64,000 nt of DNA from Streptomyces sp. NBC_00878 (GTDB lineage: Bacteria > Actinomycetota > Actinomycetes > Streptomycetales > Streptomycetaceae), in the NCBI RefSeq assembly GCF_026341515.1, contig NZ_JAPEOK010000001.1:3286001-3350000 (forward strand). Reading direction: 5' to 3'. The notes under the pieces were generated by a model that was not told the origin of the DNA, did no database searches, and saw nothing but the letters and a program-made list of their open reading frames with translations. A program made the translations under genes and the position numbers. Positions 42,318-63,632 of this stretch are shown here, piece after piece. The first letter of the stretch is position 1. Each line of letters starts with the position of its first letter.

Positions 42318-42387
42318 GGTGTCTCCTAGTTTCGGGAGGGCGCCGGGTCGCTGCCGCGGGCTGCGGAGCGTGAACCGGGGCCGACGT

Positions 42388-53947: not shown

Positions 53948-54019
53948 GCCCCCGTAGCTCAGGGGATAGAGCAACGGCCTCCGGAGCCGTGTGCGCAGGT
54001 TCGAATCCTGCCGGGGGCA
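53948..54019 (+). tRNA. tRNA-Arg (anticodon CCG)
   Basis: Cloverleaf is complete. Acceptor GCCCCCG pairs with CGGGGGC, the anticodon arm is ACGGC-CTCCGGA-GCCGT with CCG at 53981-53983, and the T-loop contains GGTTCGAATCC. Discriminator A at 54019; CCA is not encoded. It marks the border between the conserved core and the accessory region, and remnants of a recombinase follow it directly. Confidence 0.97.
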
Positions 54020-59319: not shown

Positions 59320-59429
59320 TCACTCCGTAGGCGGCATGTCGATCAAGACACGCTGCAAGCCGCAGAGGCACCACGCACGGATCCCGGGTGCTTTACCTAG
59401 GGACAGTGCAGCCAACAGAAGGAGAGCTC

Positions 59430-59684
59430 ATGAAGTCGTGGCGTTCCCGCATCACCGTCGGCCTCGCCGTCGGCGCCGCAGCGATAGCAGTCCCGCTGAC
59501 CGCCACCAGCGCAGTCGCCGTCCCCCCACCCGGCAGCGGCTGGCACGTGGCTGGCGGTATGACGTATGACTCGAAGAGGCAGTGCGAGGCTGAGGAGCTG
59601 CCGAACGCCCAGCACAACGGGTATGACGAGGTGTGGTGCGACGGTCCGGGCGGTCGCGCCGAGTACACCGTCTGGGTGCGCTGA
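59430..59684 (+). CDS. small secreted protein of unknown function
   Basis: 84 residues. Signal peptide about 1-30 (MKSWRSRITVGLAVGAAAIA core, cleavage near AVA). The mature part of about 54 residues has two Cys (KRQCEAEE and EVWCDG) that could form a disulfide, with SGWHVAGGMTYDS and AEYTVWVR. ATG 59430 has AAGGAGAG. A 12-bp perfect hairpin terminates it 23 bp past the stop, so it is a complete single-gene unit. Conserved small secreted proteins of this kind in Streptomyces have no known role. Confidence 0.78.
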   Translation: MKSWRSRITVGLAVGAAAIAVPLTATSAVAVPPPGSGWHVAGGMTYDSKRQCEAEELPNAQHNGYDEVWCDGPGGRAEYTVWVR

Positions 59685-60099: not shown

Positions 60100-60366
60100 G
60101 GTGTCGTTGACGGACTCGATCGGCTGCCGCACCGACTTGAGCAGGCCCTCGCCCCTGCGCTTCTTCTCCCGCTTGAACGAGGGCCGCGGCAGTTCGGCCC
60201 CACGCATGACCAGGTCATTCTCGAACTCCTTGGCGGCGAAGCCCTTGTCCGCGATGATCAGCAGTCCGGGCCGGTCGGCGACCAGGTCTTCATCGACGTC
60301 GAGCATGGCCTGGAGCACTTCGCGTTCGTCGAGTTTCGGGTTCGCCGGCGCCCACAGGATCGGCAT
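60100..60366 (-). mobile_element. IS982-like transposase fragment, copy 1
   Basis: 89 codons: MPILWAPANPKLDEREVLQA, LLIIADKGFAAKEFE, then a region ending LLKSVRQPIESVNDT. This is the C-terminal DDE part of an IS982-family transposase, lacking both ends. 60235-60366 is nearly identical (two differences in 132 bp) to 63471-63602 in the opposite orientation. Confidence 0.75.
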
Positions 60367-60384
60367 CCCGAGCCCACGGAAGCT

Positions 60385-60602: not shown

Positions 60603-60720
60603 TTCCCCCAGAGACTTCCCCCCTCAAGCAATCACCCATGCTTGGCGCGTGTGCGCGCGGGCGGTCGGTAATTCCGGTCGCGCGGTGGCGTCGATGGGAT
60701 AAGCTGTCCGATGATTTCGC

Positions 60721-60739
60721 GCGGCAGGTTCTCTGCCGC
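60721..60739 (+). promoter_or_regulatory. hairpin before the leader ORF
   Basis: GCGGCAG (60721-60727), loop GTTCT, CTGCCGC (60733-60739). A TAAGCT box near 60699 could be the -10 of the transcript. Confidence 0.45.
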
Positions 60740-60801
60740 CCCACTCGACGCGCTCGGCGTCGACACGCACCGCGTGCCCTGCCCGGAAGGAGGCGAGAGA
60801 C

Positions 60802-60876
60802 ATGGACCGTGCCGAATGCGTTGCGGCCATAGTTGCCTCCGGCCGTGTGCCCTCCCTCCTCTGCGGCGCGCGGTAA
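60802..60876 (+). CDS. 24-residue leader ORF upstream of the MFS exporter
   Basis: MDRAECVAAIVASGRVPSLL then CGAR, stop TAA. The start has a textbook AAGGAGG (60787-60793) 8 nt upstream, stronger than anything before the MFS gene itself. It contains a rare ATA codon (codon 10). It is followed by hairpins and a T-rich terminator-like element, then the exporter gene 352 nt downstream. This layout is that of a leader peptide in ribosome-mediated attenuation of resistance genes. A chance ORF cannot be excluded. Confidence 0.5.
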   Translation: MDRAECVAAIVASGRVPSLLCGAR

Positions 60877-60904
60877 CTCTTCCCCCTTCTCGTTTCTTGT
60901 CTTC

Positions 60905-61004
60905 GGCATCTTCCTGAGATGCCGCGTCACGAGATGTCCTGGCCTGCCCGGTTCGTCGCCGCGCGGCCTGCGGGGGCGCGTGCCCGAAGACGGGCCCTTC
61001 TTTT
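60905..61004 (+). promoter_or_regulatory. attenuator-like leader region of the MFS gene
   Basis: GGCATCT-TCCTG-AGATGCC hairpin (60905-60923). Then GGGC-GCGT-GCCC (60974-60985) competes with GCCCG-AAGA-CGGGC (60982-60995), the latter followed by CCTTCTTTT: two mutually exclusive stems sharing GCCC, the second terminator-like. Confidence 0.5.
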
Positions 61005-61227
61005 GCTGGTCACCGTGATCTCGGCACTCTCCGCCTCACGACCAGCAAGAGCGCCGGCGTGAGTGACACGCAGCTGGTGAGGCAGGCCCCGGGTGCTGTC
61101 CGCGGTACCCGCTGCCCCACTGCCATGCCGTGTCCCCGTGCTGCGTACACCGGCCCGTCGTCACCACTGCGACCGTCCCTGGCCGGCTGTCTCGACAGCA
61201 CCTCGACACGAAATGTGCGCAATCGCC

Positions 61228-62811
61228 ATGAGCAAGAAACATCCCGGAGGGGAATCCCTCCCTTCCACCCCTTCCACCCCTTCCACCCCTTCCACGGCCA
61301 CCGACCGTTCCCCGGACCGCGAGGTTCCCGCCGCGACTCCCGCACCGGATCCGGCACCGGCACCGGCACCGGATCCGAAGCGCTGGTGGGCGCTGGCCGT
61401 CATCGCCCTCGCCCAGCTGATGGTGATCCTTGACGGCACCATCGTGAACATCGCGCTGCCCTCCGCCCAGCGCGCTCTCGGCATGTCGGACGCCGACCGG
61501 CAGTGGGTGATCACCGCCTACACGCTGGCCTTCGGCGGGCTGCTGCTGCTCGGCGGCCGGATCGCCGATCTGGTGGGCCGCAAGCGCACCTTCGTCATCG
61601 GCCTGGCCGGGTTCGCCGCGGCCTCCGCGCTGGGCGGCGCGGCGGCCGGTCCCGGGATGCTGTTCGCGGCGCGGGCCCTGCAAGGTGCGTTCGCGGCGGT
61701 CCTGGCGCCCTCGGCCCTGTCGCTGCTGACGACGACGTTCACCGACCCCAAGGAGCGGGCCAGGGCGTTCGGGGTCTACGGTGCGCTGGCCGGCGGCGGC
61801 AGCGCGGTCGGGCTGATCGTGGGCGGTCTGCTGACCGAGTACCTGAACTGGCGCTGGTCCCTGTACGTCAACGTGCCCATCGCGCTGGCCGCCCTGCTCG
61901 GCGCACCGGCCTTCCTGCGCGACCGCTCCGGCCGCCGGGGCGGGCACCTGGACGTGCCGGGCGCGCTGCTGGGCTGCGGCGGGCTCGTCGCCCTCGTGTA
62001 CGGCTTCAGCGAGGCCGAACCTCGCGGCTGGACCAGCCCGTCGGTGCTCACGCTGCTCGCGGCCGGCGTGATCTTGCTCGCCGCCTTCGTGTGGTGGCAG
62101 AGCCGCGCGGCGAGCCCGCTGCTGCCGCTGCGCATCGTCAAGGACCGTGTCCGGGCCGGATCGCTCGCGACGATGGGCTTGGCCACCATCGGCATGTTCG
62201 GCGTCTTCCTGTTCCTGACGTACTACCTGCAGGTCGTCCTCGGCTACCCGCCGGTGCGGACGGGCCTGGCCTTCGTGCCGATTTCAGCCGGTATCTTCAT
62301 CGGCGCGACCCAGATCGCGGCCCGCCTGCTGCCCCGCACGGCGCCGCGCACCTTGATGTCGTCCGGCATGGTGCTGGCCGCCGCCGGCATGGTGCTGCTC
62401 AGCAGCCTGACCGTGCATGTGCAGTACGTCTCGCACGTGCTGCCCGCCCTGCTGCTGCTCGGTCTGGGCATGGGCCTGACCTTCATGCCGGTCTACGCGA
62501 CGGCCACCGCCGGCGTGCCCGCGCAGGACACCGGTGTGGCCTCGGCTGTCCTCAACACCGTTCAGCAGATGGGCGCTTCGCTGGGCACCGTACTGCTCAA
62601 CACCATCGCCACCGGCGCCACCAGCCGTTACGTCCACTCGCACGTGCACGATCCGGCCCACGGCGGCGCGACCCTCAACGAAGGCATGGTGCACGGCTTC
62701 TCCGTCGCCTACTGGTGCTCGGCGGGCGTCCTGCTGCTCGCGGCCCTGGTAGCGGGCCTCACCGTACGGCACAAGACGCCGAAGCACGCCGGAAACGACG
62801 CACCGGCCTAG
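61228..62811 (+). CDS. MFS drug exporter, DHA2 (EmrB/QacA) family
   Basis: 527 residues, about fourteen membrane helices. DHA2 motifs: LAQLMVILDGTIVNIALPSA in helix 1, GGRIADLVGRKR (motif A) and GGSAVGLIVGGLLTEYLNWRW (core GPxxGG-like motif C region). The N-terminus is unusual: a (STP) run from four 9-bp repeats and an APDPAPAPAPDPK stretch. No clear Shine-Dalgarno precedes ATG 61228; ATG 61213 is an alternative. The FBP gene follows 53 bp later. Likely a proton-driven antibiotic exporter. Confidence 0.92.
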   Translation: MSKKHPGGESLPSTPSTPSTPSTATDRSPDREVPAATPAPDPAPAPAPDPKRWWALAVIALAQLMVILDGTIVNIALPSAQRALGMSDADRQWVITAYTLAFGGLLLLGGRIADLVGRKRTFVIGLAGFAAASALGGAAAGPGMLFAARALQGAFAAVLAPSALSLLTTTFTDPKERARAFGVYGALAGGGSAVGLIVGGLLTEYLNWRWSLYVNVPIALAALLGAPAFLRDRSGRRGGHLDVPGALLGCGGLVALVYGFSEAEPRGWTSPSVLTLLAAGVILLAAFVWWQSRAASPLLPLRIVKDRVRAGSLATMGLATIGMFGVFLFLTYYLQVVLGYPPVRTGLAFVPISAGIFIGATQIAARLLPRTAPRTLMSSGMVLAAAGMVLLSSLTVHVQYVSHVLPALLLLGLGMGLTFMPVYATATAGVPAQDTGVASAVLNTVQQMGASLGTVLLNTIATGATSRYVHSHVHDPAHGGATLNEGMVHGFSVAYWCSAGVLLLAALVAGLTVRHKTPKHAGNDAPA

Positions 62812-62864
62812 CGAGCCGGGGTCGTGTCCCGCCACCGTCCACCTCACCCCTCGAAGGATCCTCC

Positions 62865-63362
62865 ATGAAACCCCTGACCGAGCACGACATCCGTACCTCG
62901 TTCGTCAACTGCTCGAAGGGCGAGGCCAAGCGCCTCCCCCTGCCCAAGAACCTGGCGGACCTCGACCACTGGGACGACCTGGACTTCCTGGGCTGGTTCG
63001 ATCTGTCCGCGCCCGATCGCAGGTATCTCGTCGTCGAACGCGCCGATGAACTCGTCGGCCTGTCCCTGCGCTCCGCTTCCGGCAACCGCGGCTTCCAGCG
63101 CCGCAGCCTGTGCTCGCTGTGCCTGACCGCCCATCCCGGCAGCGGCGTCTCCCTCATGACCGCCCCCAAGGCAGGCCCGGCCGGCCGCGAAGGCAACTCG
63201 GTGGGCCTCTACATCTGCGCCGACCTGGACTGCTCGTTGTACATACGAGGCAGGAAGAAGGCGGCACCGGGCGGGCGCATGGAGGAGTCCCTCACTGTCG
63301 AGCAGCAGATCGAGCGCCTGCGCGGCAACCTCGACGCGTTCGTGGAGCGGGTCTTCCACTGA
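62865..63362 (+). CDS. EF-G-binding protein, FBP/FusB-like
   Basis: 165 residues. The N-terminal part (MKPLTEHDIRTSFVNCSKGE) and the C-terminal treble-clef zinc finger with CSLC and ICADLDC-type cysteines plus the RGRKK and RLRGNLDAFVERVF ends match the FBP family (FusB and relatives). FusB frees ribosomes stalled with EF-G, giving fusidic acid resistance in staphylococci. ATG 62865 has GAAGGA. Probably co-transcribed with the exporter; a strong terminator follows 4 bp after the stop. Confidence 0.88.
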   Translation: MKPLTEHDIRTSFVNCSKGEAKRLPLPKNLADLDHWDDLDFLGWFDLSAPDRRYLVVERADELVGLSLRSASGNRGFQRRSLCSLCLTAHPGSGVSLMTAPKAGPAGREGNSVGLYICADLDCSLYIRGRKKAAPGGRMEESLTVEQQIERLRGNLDAFVERVFH

Positions 63363-63366
63363 GACC

Positions 63367-63404
63367 GACAGGGGCTCGACGGCCATCGTCGCCGAGCCCC
63401 TGTC
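63367..63404 (+). terminator. terminator of the MFS-FBP unit
   Basis: GACAGGGGCTCG (63367-63378) with CGAGCCCCTGTC (63393-63404), perfect 12-bp stem. Confidence 0.9.
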
Positions 63405-63435: not shown

Positions 63436-63632
63436 CTCCGGTCTTACGCGCCGGACGCACGCCGACCGGGATGCCGATCCTGTGGGCGCCGGCGAACCCG
63501 AAACTCGACGAACGCGAAGTGTTCCAGGCCATGCTCGACGTCGATGAAGACCTGGTCGCCGACCGGCCCGGACTGCTGATCATCGCGGACGAGGGCTTCG
63601 CCTCCGACTCCAGCGCAGCGCAAAGCACTTGA
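63436..63632 (+). mobile_element. IS982-like transposase fragment, copy 2
   Basis: LRAGRTPTGMPILWAPANPK followed by LLIIADEGFAS, then foreign sequence. 63471-63602 is nearly the reverse complement of 60235-60366. It extends further upstream (TPTG) than copy 1 but is shorter downstream, so the two are different deletion products of one element. Confidence 0.75.

Follow-up and report, generated by a model that had tools for sequence, protein, structure and literature searches.

The 64,000-nt stretch of Streptomyces sp. NBC_00878 analysed here (the window; G000:C1:3286001-3350000 of an 11.1 Mb genome) carries an operon for a major facilitator superfamily (MFS) exporter and FBP, a putative EF-G-binding protein, preceded by a leader with a short upstream open reading frame (uORF) (Table 1). 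The original prediction had described a 24-codon reading frame with a Shine-Dalgarno (SD) sequence, an MFS exporter whose own start lacks a clear ribosome binding site, and an FBP/FusB-like gene closed by a strong terminator. The uORF and both genes are confirmed, and no clear SD was found at the MFS start codon. The hairpin behind FBP is indeed strong but has no T-run, and is listed as a possible terminator.

Table 1. Features of the operon and its leader (window coordinates)
Feature	Position	Strand	Details
Candidate WblC/WhiB7-type promoter	60668..60705	+	-10 TAAGCT at 60700-60705
5' leader hairpin 1	60721..60739	+	
5' leader hairpin 2	60745..60763	+	
Local hairpin P3	60764..60776	+	exclusive with base of long uORF hairpin
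Long uORF hairpin	60769..60874	+	SD and start codon paired to uORF 3' half; RNAalifold, 21 sequences
24-codon uORF	60802..60876	+	MDRAECVAAIVASGRVPSLLCGAR; SD AAGGAGG at 60787-60793
Pyrimidine-rich tract after uORF stop	60877..60904	+	candidate Rho-loading (rho utilization, rut) site
Hairpin	60905..60923	+	GGCATCT-TCCTG-AGATGCC; absent from L025 and L026
Terminator-like hairpin	60978..61003	+	stem conserved, T-run not
Hairpin before MFS	61129..61210	+	ends 17 nt before MFS start codon; single-sequence folds
MFS exporter, DHA2/EmrB type	61228..62811	+	TIGR00711, 246.4 bits, cut-off 230.2
FBP, FusB-fold putative EF-G-binding protein	62865..63362	+	PF16571, E 7.8e-64; 165 aa
Hairpin after FBP, possible terminator	63367..63404	+	-31.5 kcal/mol; no T-run

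The structure model of FBP (predicted local distance difference test score, pLDDT, 90.4) was compared with PDB structures by Foldseek, and its only matches at E <=0.001 are FusC, FusC and FusB (E 1.2e-5, 5.6e-5 and 4.5e-4), with TM-scores of 0.49-0.53 by query length. Its fold, as modelled, is thus shared with FusB/FusC, although FBP is shorter than the matched chains (203-215 residues) and its binding to EF-G is putative. A PDB sequence search with FBP gave no significant match (one at E 1.4, unrelated). The putative zinc site has four Cys residues, which do not vary across 26 sequences. The same genome has a second FBP gene (G000:C1:639727-640212, 67% identical), with no such leader seen in its 1.5 kb upstream, and a further FBP match of 60 residues at G000:C1:8697591-8697767.

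Conservation of the leader in other genomes, which the original prediction had named as a check, was confirmed by a tblastn-confirmed scan with FBP as query, in which 67 loci were fetched. The uORF is present in all 24 loci with FBP at least 75% identical, as uORF-MFS-FBP in 21 and as uORF-FBP in three, and a search of the gene's strand for the SD-start motif gave no match in the remaining 43 loci. The leader DNA is nearly invariant over ~110 nt (mean column identity 97% in 20 Streptomyces and Kitasatospora sequences), and SD, spacer and start codon are identical in all 20 sequences of alignment A2, including L025 from Kitasatospora. Alignment A1 omits L008 and A2 omits L008 and L014; loci from the named set and from the further genome set may represent the same species. 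A search of the window's genome with the uORF peptide gave only the window copy as a convincing match (E 1.5e-10; next best 0.56). In titles and abstract openings of mostly non-subscription literature we found no description of this leader or of a Streptomyces M-box uORF.

We distinguish group-1 leaders, including the window's own; group-2 leaders, with uORFs of the MDWNWTTSVAAIVAPGRVPPFGAR type before an MFS gene; and M-type leaders, whose uORFs are of the type associated with the M-box Mg2+ riboswitch. In the further genome set the leader precedes FBP without MFS in 4 of 26 loci, and in all four group-2 loci it precedes MFS with no FBP match within the ~2 kb fetched behind that gene. Because it occurs with FBP alone or with MFS alone, the leader accompanies either gene, and exporter and FBP need not occur together.

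Kinship with M-box-associated uORFs

Profile R1, built solely from group-1 leaders, matched 48 of 392 genus genomes at E <=0.01 (best E for an M-box-type uORF 3.3e-11). They comprise 19 group-1 genomes (the window's own included), two group-2 genomes and 14 carrying M-type uORFs, most of them of the MDCSSSSPGHSRPHPRLSSHSSGTR type; in the last 13 the matches are weak and partial. At E <=1e-6 the same profile matched 60 of 394 family genomes in 7 of 17 genera (best E for an M-box-type uORF 2.3e-12); other matches to M-box-type uORFs are weaker, down to the cut-offs, and the large-scale profile searches used stricter filters at the cost of weak matches.

An M-box lies just upstream of the uORF in 27 of the 36 M-type loci scanned for it (out of 50), the remaining nine being L114, L119, L131, L134, L135, L136, L137, L164 and L169. 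The reverse search, starting from the M-box, agrees: 32 of 81 family genomes carry one (54 M-boxes in total), and a uORF match follows it in 27 of 30 fetched loci, in L198 behind a second M-box of the locus (positions from coordinates), with no match behind the M-box in L183, L195 and L197. A scan with the M-box model (RF00380) found none in the window, in its genome, or in five other group-1/2 loci (0 of 6 group-1/2 sequences). The leaders also differ in an upstream anti-SD, CTCCTTGCC, which is found in 38 of 50 M-type leaders and in none of 26 group-1/2 leaders. The proteins downstream of nine Streptomycetaceae M-type uORFs include four NRAMP transporters, one P-type cation ATPase and two MgtE_N proteins; L119 is followed at a distance of 1.2 kb by an SBP_bac_6 protein and L131 by a 146-aa frame with no Pfam match, and neither locus has an M-box.

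Profile R2 matched 8 of 394 class genomes, three from the same genus and five from one other family, which we infer to be mycobacterial. All six R2 loci of these five genomes have an M-box, and their uORFs (e.g. MSPGDSPYPNSVLSRSGSG) have a proline at residue 7, as reported for mycobacterial M-box uORFs (PMC12810186, available part).

The SD-uORF block in the window leader is homologous to that of the M-box-associated uORF platform of Streptomycetaceae; sequence comparison thus makes the leader kin to the uORF behind M-box riboswitches, a point absent from the original prediction. The nearest known system is the Mycobacterium tuberculosis pe20 M-box with uORF rv1805A, for which the available part of PMC12810186 describes a conserved uORF, a maskable initiation region and Rho-dependent termination, leaves open whether termination depends on uORF translation, and reports an M-box-independent homologue, Rv0115A. 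The window leader shares the conserved uORF and, by prediction, the maskable initiation region. It differs in having no M-box, in preceding MFS and FBP rather than metal or PE/PPE genes, and in a predicted fold where it is the uORF's own 3' half that masks the SD.

In three NRAMP-type loci (L114, L124 and L137) the uORF occurs without an intact M-box and is preceded by an inverted repeat resembling ACTTGCG...CGCAAGT, which in L114 and L124 is imperfect; L124 was not among the loci scanned for the M-box. Perhaps a protein operator replaced the aptamer in these loci.

Reading frame, RNA folding and candidate termination sites

The group-1 set of 45 sequences includes loci that overlap within the same genome, and only its 16 distinct uORFs were counted. 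They differ by 21 nonsynonymous (N) and 8 synonymous (S) distinct substitutions, one of the S being a stop-codon change, where a nonsynonymous share of 0.70 would be expected; the changes are spread 10/9/10 across codon positions, and a second counting gave 25 N : 6 S. M-type uORFs are similar (81 N : 22 S and 63 N : 10 S), whereas the FBP control, taken from 12 of the 21 loci L004-L024 where a simple start pattern located the gene, gave 49 N : 52 S at an expected share of 0.72. Of 62 distinct sequences that have the end motif, 61 keep it in frame with the ATG, at lengths of 69, 72, 75, 78 and 81 nt, and the sole exception, L130, contains masked bases; eight further sequences, L155 of group 1 among them, have no end motif. 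Since the frame is kept with no synonymous excess, the uORF looks like an RNA-conserved, translatable frame in which peptide selection is not visible. The core bases of the uORF lie in different frames in the M-box and window-type classes, as illustrated by GGCCATAGTTGCCCC, a 15-nt stretch shared in different frames by L158 (M-box type) and L104. A rare AUA codon was considered as a sensor and rejected, because the same bases sit in another frame in M-box relatives.

The mutually exclusive stems of the original prediction were recovered in the fold, where P3 and the basal stem of the long uORF hairpin (60769-60778 with 60865-60874) exclude each other. P3 shows compensatory changes at one pair, 97-107, which is A-U in 23, G-C in 4 and G-U in 4 of 31 sequences. 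In the window the SD is predicted to pair with the 3' half of the uORF at a probability of 0.91, compared with a mean of 0.42 for shuffled tails, 1 of 60 being as high. Predicted SD burial is 0.77-0.92 in other group-1 members and 0.6-0.99 in most M-type leaders, with L127 at 0.19. Alignment A5 holds 31 of 35 prepared sequences, and A3 holds 37 of 50 prepared loci and L026, with near-copies of group 1, L117 and the masked L130 omitted; on the mixed A3, RNAalifold gave merely 11 pairs. An association between GGAAGG and TTCC (14 of 19, against 2 of 30 for GGGAGG) was set aside as evidence of covariation, being confounded by relatedness.

Downstream of the uORF stop 28 of 33 bases are C or T, less marked in L104-L107 (19-21 of 33), and the 78-nt stretches of highest C/G ratio in the leader begin at 60836-60837 (2.1, with a window-wide 99% quantile of 2.06). 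The terminator-like stem noted in the original prediction is kept in relatives, but its T-run is missing in L026 and L104, and the site at 60982-60995 is no better than chance (one found, 0.7 expected in shuffles). The hairpin before MFS is predicted in three of four group-1 fragments (L090, L102 and L155) and in four of four group-2 fragments, covering an AGGA in L106 and L107; it was not predicted in L101, whose fragment was placed differently, or in L025 and L026.

Promoter, proposed control and competing explanations

WblC is a translation-stress regulator, and the published consensus of its promoters (GAAAWY, 3 nt, TKGMNN, 16-19 bp, TANNNT) was used to score the region upstream of the leader. 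The candidate promoter of the window, with a -35-side box read as GTAATT (17-bp spacer) or as TAATTC (16-bp spacer), scores 7/10 in the 16-bp register. A score of at least 7/10 was obtained for 28 of 35 distinct group-1/2 upstream regions, up to 10/10 in L106, these sequences being related rather than independent. A score of 7 was reached by 33 of 3500 single-base shuffles and by 40 of 5000 random stretches from the loci, which contain promoters themselves. Transcription from a WblC/WhiB7-type promoter is supported but not proven by these motif scores, and the resemblance to WblC-activated promoters favours an antibiotic or translation-stress role. The original prediction of an antibiotic-response unit is to this extent upheld, being favoured by the conservation of a uORF leader ahead of the exporter and FusB-fold genes and by the WblC-like promoter, but its proposal that a drug stalls ribosomes on the leader is not borne out as far as stalling at a particular peptide is concerned (21 N : 8 S; 25 : 6).

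We regard it as fairly probable that the leader is an M-box uORF expression platform without aptamer, placed under translation-stress control and gating the exporter and the FusB-fold protein. Ribosome loading on the uORF would compete with closure of the SD-masking hairpin, and the leader would read out the loading and movement of ribosomes, irrespective of the peptide they make. The translation state of the uORF would then decide i) transcription past the C-rich tract, by way of Rho, and past the later hairpins, and ii) opening of the hairpin before the MFS start. We infer attenuation at the leader; the analogous M-box leader of M. tuberculosis makes Rho the likely terminator. Under translation inhibitors WblC would raise transcription, and slowed ribosomes on the uORF would open the leader, so that more exporter and FBP are made; the direction of this leader response is the least certain step, a guess with roughly even chances of being right. 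On its origin we offer a more tentative scenario, which we hold to be possible but slightly doubtful: the self-masking uORF arose as an M-box platform, lost the aptamer and came under a WblC-type promoter, where it gates translation-defending genes and senses by RNA folding how ribosomes load and move, the peptide being irrelevant.

Several results weigh against this aptamer-free platform. The -35 of the window is poor in either register, and 7 of the 35 upstream regions score only 6/10. The group-2 uORFs have 2 N : 3 S (four sequences, little information), L155 has lost the usual uORF stop, and peptide selection may be hidden by constraint on the RNA at third codon positions. SD burial is weak in group 2 (0.08-0.43), and in the shuffle test on 21 sequences, while seven (window included) had at most 2 of 60 shuffles matching their SD burial, 14 more had higher numbers, up to 16 of 60 in M-type leaders and 41 of 60 in L142 (L141 was misparsed); high SD burial is therefore partly a product of base composition. 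The arm-exchange duplex test for covariation in the uORF hairpin was not significant, permutations as good as native numbering 211 of 2000 in the M-box class, 366 in all Streptomycetaceae and 149 in all sequences; in groups 1 and 2 together, where the 5' arm hardly varies, all 2000 paired at least as well as the native arms. The uORF hairpin therefore rests on folding energy and conservation.

A classical drug-sensing leader peptide, in which a ribosome-bound antibiotic stalls translation at a set position within the 24-residue peptide and an anti-terminator forms to give exporter and FBP, would account for the mutually exclusive stems and for a peptide nearly constant in close group-1 relatives. 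The architecture resembles that of the lmrC, tiaA and are5sc leaders of Streptomyces ARE-ABCF genes, which are likewise uORF leaders of antibiotic-protection genes; the available part of PMC12421871 describes the tiaA and are5sc uORFs as coding for short peptides, on which lincosamide, streptogramin A and pleuromutilin (LSAP) antibiotics cause stalling at the start codon, and mentions no M-box kinship for the three leaders. However, the selection on the peptide sequence expected of an arrest-peptide leader was not found among the few changes, the nonsynonymous share being that expected without it; the middle frame is unlike that of homologous M-box uORFs, and the terminator is weak, so that we consider this explanation unlikely. 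The uORF attenuator of wblC/whiB7 is another uORF-controlled leader in the actinomycete translation-stress response, but it controls the regulator's own gene, through a Rho-independent terminator according to the available part of the review PMC11550727, whereas the window has a putative target operon with an M-box-type uORF.

Control by Mg2+ or another divalent metal could have been kept without the M-box, low Mg2+ altering uORF translation and hence exporter and FBP. In its favour, 7 of the 9 M-type loci tested in Streptomycetaceae stand before NRAMP, P-type cation ATPase or MgtE_N genes, but the window's genome lacks an M-box and the promoter is WblC-like. Neither MFS nor FBP belongs, to our knowledge, to a known metal transporter family, and we judge metal control improbable. 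We give similarly little credence to the leader as an evolutionary leftover, with WblC promoter control doing all the regulation and the uORF hairpin affecting only mRNA stability or basal translation. The lost stop in L155 and the nine of 36 scanned M-type loci without an M-box would fit a leftover, whereas the conserved reading frame and the near-invariance of ~110 nt across 20 sequences argue against it.

If the aptamer-free platform is real, a riboswitch expression platform would be detachable from its aptamer and reusable as a general translation sensor, and leaders of Mg2+ homeostasis would be linked with translation-stress leaders in actinomycetes. The locus would also offer a directly testable case of a uORF acting by RNA and ribosome traffic, not by peptide.

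Flanks of the operon and other window features

Two 139-nt stretches in inverted orientation, 98% complementary to each other, lie on either side of the operon, at 60232-60370 and 63467-63605. Both are fragments of a DDE transposase gene, with other copies in the genome. Of 24 related loci, nine have such fragments beside the operon, six of them on both sides, which suggests that the operon moved in the past as a compound element. Elsewhere in the window lie an L31-Actinobacteria ribosomal protein leader (42339-42384, minus strand), a tRNA (53948-54019, plus strand) and a small frame of 98 aa resembling a secreted peptide (59388-59684, plus strand).

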